A DNA stretch of 64,000 bases from Xylaria sp. FL1777. Taxonomy: Eukaryota > Ascomycota > Sordariomycetes > Xylariales > Xylariaceae. The stretch is taken from NCBI GenBank assembly GCA_022578965.1, contig MU400509.1, forward strand, positions 124,001 to 188,000. The letters run 5' to 3'. Positions 22,971 to 52,546 of the stretch are shown piece after piece. The notes beneath the pieces are model-generated. The model did not search any database, had not been told where the DNA came from, and saw only the letters and a list, made by a program, of their open reading frames with translations. Position numbers and translations under genes: made by a program. Numbering within the stretch: position 1 is the stretch's first letter; each line of letters begins with the position of its first letter.

Positions 22971-27687
<4,717 letters not shown>

Positions 27688-44430: not shown

Positions 44431-47151
44431 ATGTCTTCGTTCTTTTCCATTCCAGGGGCCCAAAGGAAGCGCAAGCGAGATAATGACGGCGCTGCAGGCA
44501 AGAGACCGGCGCGACCACGCCCCACCACCAAACCGCAAGCCGCCGGTCCCAAGAAGCGAGTTGAACGAGACGAAGAGATATCGTCGGGAAGCGATTCCGG
44601 ATCCGAGCCTGCCGATGATGTCGATGTATTTGCGTCGGAATCAGAATCGGACGATGACGACGAAACGGCAGCACAGAAAAGATTGCGATTGGCTTCGGAA
44701 TACCTGTCTCGAGTACGGGAGGAGGTTGAAGCTACAGGGTGGGATGCCGAGCAAATTGTGAGAACGCTCCTATTGCGCCTGGTGTGATGCCGAGTATTCG
44801 TCGAGAGTCGCGCTAATGCCTTGCGGTTAGGACAAAGATATGATAGCTGCTCGATTGGTAACTACCGCCGAACGCGAACACTGTGACTATGATCTAAAGA
44901 TATCGCTTTTAGGAGGACGATGTGGCAGAAAGCAAAGGAAAGGTCTTCCGTCACGTCGCGTCAGATATCGACCTCGACTCACGGCCAACAATGTTCCGAG
45001 ACAATACGCATACAGTGACCTCTGTGGCTCTCTGCTCGCCTTTTGTCTACCTGGGTGAGTGACGTTGACGGTTCTCTTGTTCCTGTTTGGTCAATGTTCT
45101 TGTGTGCTGGATCACCTTCCACGCTGTCCTCCGATCTTGACAGTAACTGACTTCATATGTCAAAGTGACGAAAGACTCGCAGTTGATAAAGTACCGATTA
45201 CAACCTCCCCCAGATGAACAATACAAGCAGACAACTCGAAAGAAGCCCAAGAAGCAAGCACCGCCCCGGAAACGGCCCCAGCGGGTCGCTTTGGTGAAAG
45301 GGAGGCACAAAAAGGCCGGGGATAAGAATTTTAAGGGCCACGTTGGGCAGATATTATGCGTAGCAGCCAGTGATGACGGAAAATATGTCGTCACAGGTGG
45401 TGATGATAAAAGAATTGTGGTCTGGGATTCTTCTCTCAAGCCTTTGCGGGTATTTACGCACCACAGAGATTCCGTGACCGGGTTGGTCTTCCGTAGAAAT
45501 TCCCATCAGATGTACTCATGCTCGAAGGACCGTACTATCAGAGTCTGGGTGAGTCTTTGGCTTCCATATTTCTCAGGTCTACCCCCGGAGCGCAGTGCTA
45601 ATTCAACAACGAAGAACTGCGATGCCCTCGCATTTGTCGAAAGCCTATTTGGTCATGCCGACTCGGCTCTAGATGTCGATGCATTAGCCTTAGAGAGGCT
45701 GGTGTCAGTAGGAGCAGTAAGTATTTCCCAGAGTCAATCCTCCCCGCCCATAGGATTCCTTGCATTTCATCCTATATACTCCCCAACAGCTGAGTTATGA
45801 ACGAATAAGTACTGATCTCGACAACTACAGAGAGATAGAACAGTTCGCCGTGAGTGATATTTTACAATATATCCATCCCACTTAGCCAAAATATGTCAAC
45901 TCCATTACATATGCGGCACTGTACCCATCGAAACAATTACTGTATTCATTTCCCTCTCGGGGCAAATCCTAACATTCGTTTAGTCTGGAAAGTGGCAGAC
46001 GAAACCCAGCTTGTTTTCCGGGCTACTTCTGGGACTGGGGATAGGAAGAAGGAAGTCAACCATGGTGTGGTAAGCCACTCTCATTCTATTTTCACTCCCG
46101 GTTAATAATTGACTGAGGTTATTAATTTGTCCGATATAAGGATCCTAATTCTCTTGCTGCAACTGGAAGCCTTGACCGGGTAGCGTACATCGATGAGAGT
46201 TATTTTATTACGGGGTCTGATAACGGGTGCATTTCTTTGTAAGATTTTCTGTTTTGCCAGCTTGCCATGATGAAGGGAGACGGACAAACCGTGTTCCTTG
46301 CTCCACGGGCTTCTCTACAATCCATACTTAGATTGATACTAACTATTACAGATGGACGCTGTCTAAGAAAAAACCACTGGACACTATAATAAGGGCACAC
46401 GGATTAGAAGATCCTCTACTTCCTTCCGTTGCTAGTTCAGAAGAGCACCCTTCATCTAAAGTTGTACCTCCACCTCAGCCCCGAGGAATTACCAGTCTTC
46501 GAGCGTTACCATATTCTGATTTAATCCTTTCTGGTAGCACTGATGGGTTCATTGGTAAGTATAAGATCCTCTGCGTGCAATGCTTTCGTTCTAAGCAATA
46601 TATTGAGATCAGTACTGATTCTTTTCCAGTGAGTATAAATATTCGTGTTCGCCTCTAGCAACGCCGCACGACGGCGAAGTCTAGAGAACAGAAATAAGAT
46701 CCCAACTAACATGGTCTTGTAGCGCGTTTGGAAATTTAACGAAAAGGAAAAGAGACTTGAAAGCGTTGGTATACTAGGGCAGCCGAGTAAACAAATCGCT
46801 GCCAATGGCCTAATAAATCAAATATCGACGGATGCTATGGATATCACTAATGAAGACGAGAGGATTAATCATGCCACTGATACCGACGGCGTCAGCAAGT
46901 CAGAAGCAGAACCTTATCAAATTAAGGGAGTTGTCAACGACATAGCCATCATATCAAGGGGCAAATCGGGCGACAATGAGACTTTTATTGTAGTATGTGC
47001 GGTCGGAAAGGAACACAGGCTCGGGAGATGGGGTTCCAACATCAAAGGGGCCAAGAACGGCGCCGTGGTATTCGAATTACGGAAAAAGTCGAGGAAAAGA
47101 GATGCTGAAAGCAGTGTGAACGGGGTTGAGAACGCAGCTAATGCAAAGTGA
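44431..47151 (+). CDS. RRP9: U3 snoRNP-associated WD40 protein Rrp9 (U3-55K)
   Basis: Ten exons: 44431-44757, 44831-44857, 44913-45054, 45166-45548, 45615-45716, 45831-45849, 45984-46069, 46141-46238, 46352-46553 and 46723-47151, giving 604 aa. The N-terminus is MSSFFSIPGAQRKRKRDNDG with acidic Ser-rich segments, then AESKGKVFRHVASDIDL and the WD40 propeller: FKGHVGQILCVAASDDGKYV, VTGLVFRRN, SLFGHADSALDVDALALERL, VGARDRTVRLWKV, TGSLDRVAYIDE, FITGSDNGCISLWTLSKKKP and SGSTDGFIRVWKF. Rrp9 binds the U3 snoRNA B/C motif in the SSU processome. I chose the start at MSSFFS; an in-frame ATG at 44362 would add 23 unlikely residues. Exon 6 is 19 nt. Exons 9 and 10 join only if the intervening 169 nt are a twin intron (see 46554-46722); every conventional splice tested by eye ends in an early stop. 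Confidence 0.93.
46554..46722 (+). other. Candidate [D1,2] stwintron in RRP9
   Basis: Exon 9 ends TTC ATT at 46553. Base 46554 is G. An internal intron follows at 46555-46629 (75 nt: GTAAGT donor, TACTGAT branch-like site, TTCCAG acceptor). Its removal joins G46554 to TGAGTATAAAT (46630 on), creating a perfect GTGAGT donor for an external intron (94 nt after the first splice) that ends at 46722 with a CAACTAAC branch and TTGTAG. Exon 10 then starts CGC GTT TGG, giving GFIRVWKF, the expected WD blade. Stwintrons of this class, an internal intron between donor bases 1 and 2, are known from filamentous ascomycetes; this one is inferred from sequence. Confidence 0.8.
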
Positions 47152-47637: not shown

Positions 47638-50600
47638 CTAGCATGAATTCTGCATACGTTCGTAAATGATTTTGTACTCTTTTCTTTGCTTAGTTGTCTT
47701 CGTGAGCGAGTGCTTCGCCTTTCCGAAAGCACGAGCTAGGGACTGAAAGACGTAGTTCTCGCATATCCAGGCAAGCACCAGATACACAACGCCCAGCACC
47801 AGCAGTGTAACCTTGAAAGACGCGCTGATTCGCGTGAGTTGCATGAATTTGCGTAACCAGTGCGCAGGCGTGAAGACCATATATAAAACTATAGTGAGTG
47901 CAAGGACAATGGTCGTCATAAATGGGTCTAAGGAAATAGTCAGCTCGGATCGTATGGCTTTGTTTGCTGTTTCTGGAGTCGAAGATTCAGGTATTATGCT
48001 CTGCTTGAAGACAAAGGTGGTCAAGGACCTTGGGGGACGAGGTCGTATCCATTTGGTGCGACGAATGGGTTGTATAGATACTAGAGTGCACAACTCACAA
48101 TTCTTTGTTATCGGTTGCCGGAAAGGCTTGCCTGCATTAAGCACTACGCCGATAAAGATGTACTCGAAGCAAGACATTAGGAATAGCGCGGTGTTCTCCG
48201 AATTCTTGATGTTGGACTTCTCAGGATCTACATGAGGTGGGATAAACCTTACGAAGGAGAAAATCATTTAGCAGAGTACAAGGATCATGGCTCAGGCTTA
48301 CGTACCACTCTTGCTCTTGTACGATGAGGAACGAAGAAGCTTGAATGAGAATGCATATAATCATTTGACCCAAAAGTGGTGTGAGGACCTTCCGGGACAC
48401 TAGATTGGCTGTTGGTCGTTTCTTGCTTAACACTGGGTAAGGTCCGGACCAGCCCACTGTGAAAATATTCAGCACCTATTCTGTGATGCGGCGTTGGTTA
48501 CATGAATATGACTTACTGAAAATAGCAATAGGCAATATGAGTAGAACATCAATGAATAAAAACTAGGAAATTGCTAGTCAGCAGAGAACGTGGGAGTGTC
48601 ACTGTCAATCTAACCTGAAAGTCTCCCAGGTTTGAAGCCGACGCGTAGAGGAAGCTGACTGAAGTGAACTGGATTGCCGAGTAAAGGCTCATAAACTTGA
48701 AGCAACTAAAACTGGTGACCAGTGCAGCTCGGCCCTCTCTGCTGAGTGGTTAGCGCTAGTTGGGAATGACTTTCTTGAGTAGCTTTCAACGAACCTAATT
48801 ACGTCAGGGACGCATCGAATATCGAATATTCTTGATGTGAATGGTGCGGCGACCGATGCCTCTGCCTCTGACAAGGAGATGCCAACATCTGCCGCTTTCA
48901 GGGCACCACAGTCATTGGCTCCGTCACCACAAAACCCGCAACAATAGCCAATACTTTGAAGTTTCTCAACTAACTCGTGCTTCTCATCAGGGGACATCCG
49001 CGCGAATATTTTGCCACGAACGAGCATCTAAACCGTGTTAGAGTATCAACTGCTCACTCGACCTTATTTACGGAAGGAAGTAGACGACACTTACCTTTTG
49101 CATAACGTCGTTCGGAGCGAAGTCGATAATCCACCTGAATACATCGCCACTTATCGCGAGCGAATAGTTTTTGAGGTTGGTTATATCGTACGGTAGAGAG
49201 GCATCGCGCTGGGCCGGCACAGGGAGTGGCTATAATGAGACGTTTAGCGAAAATTGTTCTAAGCGATAGGGTTTCGAACCATACAAGCAGACTCCGGCTG
49301 TCTAATTGGTACGCAGCGTCATCTATGCTTTCCCATTGAAGCCGTGCATTTGGATCCCGAGAATTGCCCTCTACAAAATGTGGTACGAAACAATGAGCAT
49401 TTCGCTCAACTAGACCACAATTCCTTGCCACGCTGATGGCTGTCAAAATATTGTCTCCTGTGACCATAATAGAACCGATATTCGACTGGTTAAGTTCCTT
49501 CAAAACTGCAGCTGTTGTTGGTTTTAGCTTATTCTCAAATATGATAAACCCGACGAACTCTAGGTCCGTTTCGACGTCCTCCCTTTTTATCTTTTGGGAT
49601 TTGACCCAGGACAATTTCTTCATGTGCTTCGTAGCACATGCAATGACACGATATCCCTTATGCGTATAATATGACAAGAGCTCGTCATAGTCATCAGGAA
49701 CTGGGCATGTCAGCCTTCGTTTATACATATGATGAAGAAAAGGAATAGAGCATACAGCTTTCGGGTCGGCAAATGTCCCGCATGCATTCTGGCGCACCCT
49801 TGACATATACATCTCCTTGCTGTTGACCGAACCCTCGAACAATAACGCTAGCTCTGCGTAACTGAGATACGAATTCGAAGGATCTCAATACCCCAAGTTC
49901 TAGGGGAGCCTGGAGTAAAGTTAGATATCAAGACCGTGTCGTACCACAGCGAGGGCACTTACATTTGTGCCATTGATATTCGCATACTCATCCGTATCGT
50001 AAAGCGGCGCTGGAGGAGGCCTTGCTATTGAAGGGGAAAGGCCGCCATGCTCGTCATCTTCTTGGTCGCCTCCCCCCTGTGTACCTTCTTCAAAGAGCCA
50101 CCCCGTAAACTCAAACATCTTCAAGTCCAGCGGATCCCCGACGAGCTCGCCATCAACAGAGCGGAGAGAGTGGCAAGTGGCCATAGCGAAAAGCGCCGCA
50201 CGACTAATATGATATTTATCTTCAGAGTCAGAAGCGAGGCTCGAGTAAGGCACTAATGCGGCTGCTTTAGAGACAACGTCGTCGAATCGTTTCGTCGATC
50301 GAGATACTAGCCTGACGCCGAGAACATCTAATCCATCTTCGGTGAGAGTGCCAGTCTTGTCGAAACACATAACATCGAGCTTGCCACCAACATTGACCCT
50401 TTGTGGGCTAATACAAAAAATTTGCTTCTTCTTCAGGCGACTCAAAGCGAAATTGGTTCCAATTGTCAAAGTAGCTGGCAGAGCTGGTGGGACTACAATA
50501 GTAATCAAATCCAGTGCTCTAACGATGATCAAGTGCCAGGCCAGCCCAAGGCGAACAAAATTGACGAAAGAAACAACGAAACCGAGTAGCGCAATACATC

Positions 50601-52546
50601 CCATGACCGATATGTATCGGAAGGAATCTCGATAAAATTTGAATCCTGATGGCTTTGGGAACAACATGGACCGGACCAGAGAGCCTTTGGTCGTATTAAA
50701 TCCCGTCCGTACAACCATAGCAAGCGCAACCGCTTCGTCATCTCTGTTATCATGTGGTCTCCTCGCACGTACTATCTTCGTTCCGCAAAATAGAAAATGG
50801 CGAGCTGCTTCGGGCGAGATCGTCGAGGCACTGAGGTTCATGATCTGAAGTGTCTCGTTGGTGGCCGGGATCTTGGAGACCGGGACTGACTCCCCGGTGA
50901 GCATACTCTCGTTTACTATACAGTCTCCGCTTAGCAGAATACTATCACCAGGGAACTGTGTAAGGCTGGGGTCGCTGATTTCATACACGTCCCCGGGGAC
51001 TAAGTCACCCGAGGAGACGTTTGCCCCTATAAAGAAATTAGCAGAGTGAGAATTGAGCACGACAAAATGAACCTACAGAAACCATTGCGAAGAACGCGCA
51101 CATCGCACTCAAACCGAGATATGTCTCGCAAACGCCGCATTGTCTATCTATGTCAGCAACCGACACGATATGATGGGGGATAGAAAAGCAAGATACTTAC
51201 AGCACGTGTCTCTACAAGGGTAGCAATGATGCTGGCTGCGGACATGACGAATATACATATGGCATAGTAGTAGTACTGGTCCAGTGACCATAGAATCAGA
51301 CTTGCGATTTGGAAAACATAGAATGGGTGAAAGACCTGGTCGTTCATATTAATTTCTACAAGCATCTTCCGAGTAAGGTAACGCACCTCGTCCACTAGCA
51401 GCTGAGGGATCGACTTCTGTTCAATATCTATAATGTTGGCACCAAAAACAAGCGCTCGTTGGTCTTTCTCATCCCCATCGATGCCAATTCGAAGATCCCG
51501 AACCCTAGTCCAACTCGGATCTTTCCACCCGTTACAAACGATAAATTTATCTTTCAGAGGGTGGAAAAAGAAGCGGACATAACGATAATCGAGAGTTTGC
51601 AATTCGCTCATTATAGGATCACCATCATCTTCGAGTAGCTGTGCAAACATTTTCTCGGGGGCACCAAAAACAGTGGAAAGTGGCCTGTCGTAAGGCAGAC
51701 GCCTAACCTTCAAGGTAGCCATCTCACTCCACTGGTTCTGTGCGTGTTTGAAACCAGAATTAGCAGTAGAAACTACGTTAGAAGAGGTGATAGACTAACT
51801 TCGAGGACAACCCACTGACACTCGCGAAGTGGACAGGGTTCTCCGATCAACTTAACTCGCCACCTGGGTAGCCAGCGCAAAAGCAAGTATGCGAGGCCCA
51901 AAGTTAACGAGCAGAGAATGATATAGGCTAGATAGCCTAGACGGCTGGTCCGAAATCCCGCTATTACAATGGTAAGGTCCTCGCTAACGATATGTAGTTT
52001 TTGGCTGATTCGACCATGGACACGGCTGCTTGAATCAGTCCTGGCGCTATCAGTTCGAAGAAGTCGAGCATGGACGGAAGACCTGGATAGGGTAGACGAT
52101 CTCCTCCTATGCATAGCATAGCCTTGGGTGCTCCCGTTCTCAATCTCACTATCTGAAGCTTGGTCTTCGTCATGGGCTAATTCGAAAGGAATGTCATCGA
52201 TGTCAAAAGGGACGGCTCCGTTTTCGACATATTGCTGCTCAGTCTCAGGTACATTTTCCTCCTCATTATAATACGTAAAACTCGCGGTCGAGTCGGCGCG
52301 TTGGCGACGATGGGAAAAGGCGGAAACGCTCGTCGGCAGGCTCTCGGCGATAGGACCAGCAAACAACTACAGACAGGATGGGGTCAGAAGAGCTGGCATG
52401 AATATAAACACGACAGGCTTACACACCTCGTCGTGAGCCATTTCTACATCCTCGAACACGCTAGCATTGCTCTGATTAGAGCCGAGCCGGTACAGAGGAG
52501 CAACGGCCGGGCGCTCTCCCGGCGCAGTAGCTTCGTCATCGTCCAT
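47638..52546 (-). CDS. YPK9: P5B-type ATPase (Ypk9/ATP13A2-like), vacuolar/lysosomal
   Basis: Fourteen exons: 52546-52427, 52366-51800, 51737-51201, 51143-51077, 51026-49963, 49909-49756, 49700-49285, 49229-49095, 49027-48795, 48738-48615, 48562-48517, 48456-48306, 48247-48099 and 47927-47638, giving 1350 aa. A disordered N-terminus leads to an acidic block, an N-terminal hydrophobic region, [17 protein letters not shown], an A domain with [10 protein letters not shown] (about 473), the P5B signature PPALP (610-614) followed by [17 protein letters not shown], the phosphorylation site [10 protein letters not shown] (Asp about 653), KGAPECM, MVTGDN and [20 protein letters not shown] (about 1054), then six C-terminal helices. 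PPALP rather than PPELP separates P5B from P5A (Spf1). Ypk9 in yeast is vacuolar and protects against metals; ATP13A2 exports polyamines from lysosomes. Intron 13 (48098-47928) is 171 nt against mostly 50-75 nt for the others. Confidence 0.93.

Follow-up and report, generated by a model that had tools for sequence, protein, structure and literature searches.

A probable [D1,2] spliceosomal twin intron in the RRP9 gene of Xylaria sp. FL1777

We report that RRP9 of Xylaria sp. FL1777 very probably contains a spliceosomal twin intron (stwintron) of the [D1,2] type, 169 nt long and lying between exons 9 and 10 at 46554-46722 (+) of the window, the 64,000-nucleotide stretch of contig MU400509.1 that was analysed and to which all positions refer. 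The case is made at the level of the DNA, where the motifs, their arrangement and the junction that the protein demands can be read, and it points to a donor split between G1 and T2, consensus elements in both constituent introns and a junction beyond the reach of any single canonical intron.

The RRP9 gene and the interval between exons 9 and 10

The gene lies at 44431-47151 (+) and has 10 exons (44431-44757, 44831-44857, 44913-45054, 45166-45548, 45615-45716, 45831-45849, 45984-46069, 46141-46238, 46352-46553 and 46723-47151) that together give an open CDS of 1815 nt encoding 604 aa. Reassembly of this CDS from its exons bore out the first-pass annotation in its coordinates, exon count, CDS length, frame and product (GSTDGFIRVWKF). 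Judging by the open CDS, the orthologue records and a near-full-length match to a solved Rrp9 (PDB 5oql chain X; residues 1-597, E 1.9e-172), the gene is RRP9, which encodes a WD40 protein of the U3 snoRNP; yeast and human Rrp9/U3-55K also match the product, more weakly than chain X does. A model with a different end to intron 5 was discarded for being out of frame. The nearest protein record among the best 120 of 1553 matches is P0001, "WD40-repeat-containing domain protein [Xylaria sp. FL1777]", which is identical to the window product except for two gene-model differences (100% over 603 tree columns). Intron 4 (45549-45614; 66 nt, stop-free) is retained in P0001 as 22 residues that are absent from six aligned records. 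A search of the species' own genome (58.7 Mb, 588 contigs) found no second copy of RRP9, the C-terminal part of the product matching this locus alone. Elsewhere in the window, open stretches downstream of RRP9 at 49057-52366 (-) presumably belong, from their motifs, to a P-type ATPase, and another at 22974-25214 (-), also by motifs, resembles an ABC transporter.

Exon 9 ends GGG TTC ATT (GFI), the junction that follows is in phase 0, and exon 10 starts CGC GTT TGG (RVW). Homologues place this junction after I462 (GSTDGFI|RVWKF), which corresponds to 46553|46723, and at I462|R463 the 604-aa product aligns without a break to each of the 78 more distant records (P0043-P0120) and to 5oql chain X. 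Given that the 169-nt interval starts with GG and that the junction is unable to slide, the bases at its edges being different (T/G and G/C), no single GT-AG or GC-AG intron can make 46553|46723.

All of the elements that had been proposed for a nested arrangement are present in the interval. The G at 46554 would be G1 of the split external donor and is followed by a candidate internal intron of 75 nt (46555-46629; GTAAGT...CAG), in which a branch-point element, ACTGAT (46614-46619), stands 7 nt upstream of the CAG. The remainder of the external intron (46630-46722; TGAGT...TAG), 94 nt with G46554 included, carries the element ACTAAC (46705-46710) 9 nt upstream of the TAG, so that the published branch motif occurs once in each of the two introns. 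Together with TGAGT, the G that closes the internal acceptor also forms an overlapping donor GTGAGT (46629-46634) that exists before any splicing, and the 75 nt from 46554 to 46628 contain no stop in the frame of exon 9. With G46554 joined to exon 10, translation yields IARLEI and then a stop, as the first-pass annotation had said, and removal of 46555-46629 does place G46554 beside TGAGT to build the donor GTGAGT.

We enumerated the nested decompositions of the interval in which an internal GT-AG or GC-AG intron of at least 40 nt is removed and the remainder again runs from GT or GC to AG. There are six, in every one of which the internal intron starts at 46555, and a consensus external donor arises only with 46555-46629. 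Scored against the gene's own eight ordinary donors, this GTGAGT reaches 9.45 bits and the remaining three GT donors -1.67, -4.84 and -8.93 (scores cover the GT donors only, and not the two GC ones). The published search formula for [D1,2] stwintrons (model A; PMC9024468, section 2.1), run on both strands of the window, gives one match on the + strand, exactly at 46554-46722. Shuffled windows give a mean of 0.15 matches per strand, with 52 of 60 free of any match, and when only the interior is shuffled between fixed termini, 193 of 20000 sequences continue to satisfy the formula. A second match at 28679-28535 (-), surrounded by stops in each of the three frames read, is probably due to chance.

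The ends of the interval can form a near-terminal stem of 9 bp with two G-U pairs, its 5' arm being TATAAGATC (46560-46568) and its 3' arm GGTCTTGTA (46713-46721). Stems of at least this length arise in 67 of 3000 shuffles, and the gene's eight ordinary introns form stems of 4 to 7 bp; we regard it as a mild signal that recalls NTIRE elements. Neither the folding of the whole 169 nt (52 of 300 shuffles as low) nor the pairing of the two 30-nt ends of the stwintron (193 of 500) was better than that of shuffled sequence. We do not claim that the internal intron was copied from the external one, the two sharing only a 9-nt word that 46 of 1000 shuffles reach.

Traces in orthologue protein records

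RRP9 relatives were drawn from the best 120 of 1553 protein matches and divided between P0042 and P0043, where identity drops to 56%. The first 42 records belong to Xylariaceae according to their names or their position in the RRP9 tree, with P0037 labelled only as Xylariales and P0016 and P0035 otherwise named; the other 78 comprise Hypoxylaceae, a few more records labelled Xylariaceae sp., other fungi and records without a name. P0016 (Lasiodiplodia mahajangana) and P0035 (Hypoxylon argillaceum) cluster with Nemania in this tree, and their source names look wrong. Automatic classification of the junction in the 42 gave 26 exact, 11 insert and 5 gap records. The classes used here were assigned by eye after the data had been seen, which corrected seven of the 26 "exact" calls (P0013, P0015, P0016, P0017, P0026, P0033 and P0040) and left 19 clean, and donors were back-read from protein sequence alone.

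At junction 9 the protein is garbled in 23 of the 42 closest records and in none of the next 78 (best 120 of 1553 matches). The 19 clean records among these 42 are compatible with a stwintron or an ordinary intron alike. The garbled ones, again within the best 120 of 1553, fall into several types: nine are V-type, with an insert starting VS or VR (P0001, P0006, P0008, P0012, P0017, P0018, P0027, P0032 and P0038); two start with V and are truncated or deleted (P0037 and P0025); four have G-type inserts (P0011 GMC, P0013 GAY, P0015 GTC and P0041 GMY); the insert of P0019 starts with G and then runs into a deletion; two are shifted in frame (P0023 and P0033); and five are otherwise garbled (P0016, P0026, P0030, P0036 and P0040). 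As a control, indels were counted mechanically in the closest 42 of the best 120 of 1553 matches. Junction 9 carried them in 16 of the 37 rows that could be scored (5 had been dropped because of coverage), whereas each of the other eight junctions did so in 0 to 4 of 38-41 rows and none of 253 positions away from junctions in more than 3. The same count over the 78 distant records found none at junction 9 (0/78), 68/78 at junction 7 and 3 at junction 2, so these distant records are not free of indels elsewhere.

The G-type inserts fit a G followed by a donor of the form GTNNGT, which would be GTATGT in P0011, GTGCGT in P0013, GTACGT in P0015 and GTATGT in P0041; the third residue must then come from a codon beginning with T, and it does so in four of four. 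In P0023 (X. cubensis) the peptide ARLEVQRKGQ equals RVWKF... read after one extra G at 10 of 10 residues, a fit equalled by 0 of 5000 shuffled peptides, and in P0033 (X. bambusicola) ACMEIRRK does so at 8 of 10 residues (equalled by 1 of 5000). No leading base other than G fits at all in either record. On this reading of the peptides, the extra G is the lone G left by one-step excision from the internal donor to the external acceptor. The frame of P0033 after STDGFI is that of the lone G over 8 residues, after which the usual frame resumes with the length unchanged, as if one base of exon 10 were missing downstream, which could be a real compensation or a sequence error.

The V-type inserts are compatible with an external donor GTGAGT or GTGAGA, and an ordinary intron with GTGAGT would fit them too. 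As far as the protein sequences can tell, then, the six G-type and lone-G records, and P0019 in part, fit only the nested form, and the V-type is ambiguous. The types differ between sister species (X. scruposa G-type, X. curta V-type), and of two records named X. flabelliformis one is clean and one V-type. In the tree the V, G and garbled labels cluster no more than shuffled labels do, as would be expected of annotation accidents; the "exact" label shows some clustering (equally low values in 5 of 500 shuffles). This tree was made before the two lone-G records were separated, and it neither dates nor proves the gain of the stwintron. The simplest account of these records would be one stwintron common to Xylaria and Nemania that gene prediction has variously broken, with the same stwintron possibly present in Rosellinia, where the records are V-type only. 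The RRP9 stwintron may well be inherited within the Xylariaceae.

Other readings of the interval

The first-pass annotation had also held that other single introns lead to stops, which is wrong: 175 of 995 single introns around the gap (GT-AG, GC-AG or AT-AC, at least 41 nt) leave the frame open, 46629-46722 among them. Most of these open introns have poor donors or lose conserved sequence, and those from donor 46555 to acceptor 46777 or 46855 are open but delete RVWKF. The intron 46629-46722 (donor CCA|GTGAGT) deserves closer attention, as its donor equals the gene's best, and the first-pass annotation had overlooked it; 46554-46628 would then be coding, and Rrp9 would have 629 aa with 25 extra residues. 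P0011 and P0015 carry inserts of 27 and 28 residues, exactly a form of the 629-aa type, and the inserts of the window, P0011 and P0015 resemble one another slightly more than shuffled peptides do (scores as high arise in 12, 19 and 65 of 1000 shuffles). However, these inserts have only 6 to 8 of 24-26 residues in common between flanks that are nearly identical, and the region encoding the 25 residues contains an intron donor, a branch element and an acceptor. The insert would separate GFI from RVWKF within a WD blade, at a point that we take, from WD40 architecture, to be a beta strand; an insert at this position occurs in 0 of the 78 more distant records of the best 120 of 1553 matches, and a protein search keyed to the insert returned 36 records, every one already within the 42 classed. 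An HMM built from the 78 distant records scores the 629-aa form at 791.1 bits and the 604-aa form at 816.8, and the Pfam WD40 scores are 94.9 and 105.5 bits, respectively. We take the likeness of the three inserts, the sole result leaning toward a coding insert, as a leftover from related introns, and consider a single intron at 46629-46722 very unlikely.

The NCBI record P0001 reads the junction as two successive introns (46555-46629 and 46647-46722) around a mini-exon of 17 nt, which would add VSINIR and give 610 aa, the rest being as modelled here. The donor of the second intron, GTTCGC, scores only -1.75, below the range of 6.92 to 9.45 spanned by the eight ordinary donors of the gene, and the 610-aa form reaches 805.0 bits with the HMM of the 78 records rather than 816.8. 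The patch at this junction varies in length in the other V-type records (4, 5, 5, 6, 7, 10, 16 and 29), and P0001 further retains intron 4, which six other aligned records do not. We regard the mini-exon as extremely improbable, and give no more credence than this to a spurious or frameshifting G46554. A single base does set the start of the intron at 46554 or 46555, and without G46554 one intron at 46555-46722 would restore the frame. Yet the same extra G is implied in other species by the four inserts that fit G + GTNNGT and by the two frames shifted by exactly one G, the remainder of the RRP9 frame is intact, and a spurious G would leave unexplained the internal acceptor, the hybrid TGAGT and both branch elements, an arrangement that few interior shuffles reproduce. 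The [D1,2] stwintron accordingly remains our preferred reading.

Proposed splicing, relation to known stwintrons and significance

In the splicing pathway that we propose, the U2 spliceosome would remove the 75-nt internal intron, so that G46554 would come to adjoin TGAGT and create the donor GTGAGT. A second round would then excise the 94-nt external intron up to TAG46722, which would leave the junction ATT|CGC and an intact WD blade, GSTDGFI-RVWKF, in the 604-aa Rrp9. Two ordered reactions are suggested by the anatomy. We infer the order of the two reactions, and their dominance in the cell, from published stwintrons of the same type, for which splicing intermediates are described in RNA reads (PMC12403724, PMC9024468). 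The same papers describe, for other [D1,2] stwintrons, one-step missplicing that leaves the G and shifts the frame; translation of the joined sequence indicates that such missplicing in the window gene would give IARLEI and a stop.

The suggestion that the arrangement could regulate a U3 snoRNP gene is unsupported, nothing that we found pointing to regulation, and we take the RRP9 stwintron as constitutive housekeeping splicing rather than a demonstrated switch. Before splicing, a single G both ends the internal acceptor and begins an external donor, and so the two possible first cuts would be mutually exclusive. Internal-first splicing would give the 604-aa Rrp9, and external-first splicing an in-frame product of 629 aa with a 25-residue loop in the WD blade, an isoform switch that we think most improbable. 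The stretch concerned is 75 nt here, and the records of two relatives have the weakly alike inserts of 27 and 28 residues. We do not claim the stop-free internal intron as a sign of selection, since a lack of stops in this frame also turned up in 536 of 5000 shuffles; were selection to preserve both the absence of stops and a length divisible by 3, the stwintron would build an isoform switch into this protein of the U3 snoRNP.

The [D1,2] type is already known and well described in Xylariales (PMC9024468, PMC12403724). More than 1500 [D1,2] stwintrons are published for the Hypoxylaceae (PMC9024468) and 215 sister [D1,2] stwintrons for the Xylariaceae (PMC12403724). Sister stwintrons are similar in sequence, recent and species-specific, and uniquely occurring ones are mostly found at conserved positions (PMC9024468); in the sisters of Xylariaceae the distance from branch to acceptor is almost invariably 14 nt (PMC12403724). 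A DNA search of the own genome with the 169 nt (E 0.001) found the query alone. Given the lack of a similar own-genome copy, the 9-nt branch distance and the traces in many species, the RRP9 stwintron would be best filed as one of the uniquely occurring class. It resembles the uniquely occurring [D1,2] stwintrons of Hypoxylaceae (PMC9024468) in G1/T2 placement, in its fit to model A, in having no own-genome copy and in a position apparently conserved within the family, and differs from them in lying in another gene, in Xylariaceae, and in being proposed from sequence. With the sister [D1,2] stwintrons found in Xylariaceae and in Hypoxylaceae (PMC12403724) it shares type and fungal order, and its 9-bp stem may resemble NTIRE-9/10. 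In contrast to these sisters, it has no copy in the genome and a branch distance of 9 rather than 14 nt, and its position is apparently common to many species whereas theirs belong to one. The lipS [D1,2] and bioDA [D2,3] stwintrons of Pezizomycotina likewise split a donor and hold one gene position across many species (PMC5639578), although the genes differ and the bioDA donor is split one base later.

A literature search, with supplementary tables outside its reach, found no publication naming a stwintron in RRP9, and the searched text of PMC8469720, PMC6616335 and PMC7138796 does not mention RRP9; the RRP9 example thus looks new. Apparently family-wide and situated in a gene for ribosome assembly, it enlarges the set of [D1,2] stwintrons and could help to date stwintron gain and loss. 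Public databases mis-annotate it: among the 42 closest RRP9 records of the best 120 of 1553 matches, 23 have gene models that fail at this one junction. The ways in which they fail can be decoded, with the external donor read, the internal donor read or a lone G left, and stwintrons might therefore be detectable from protein databases alone.
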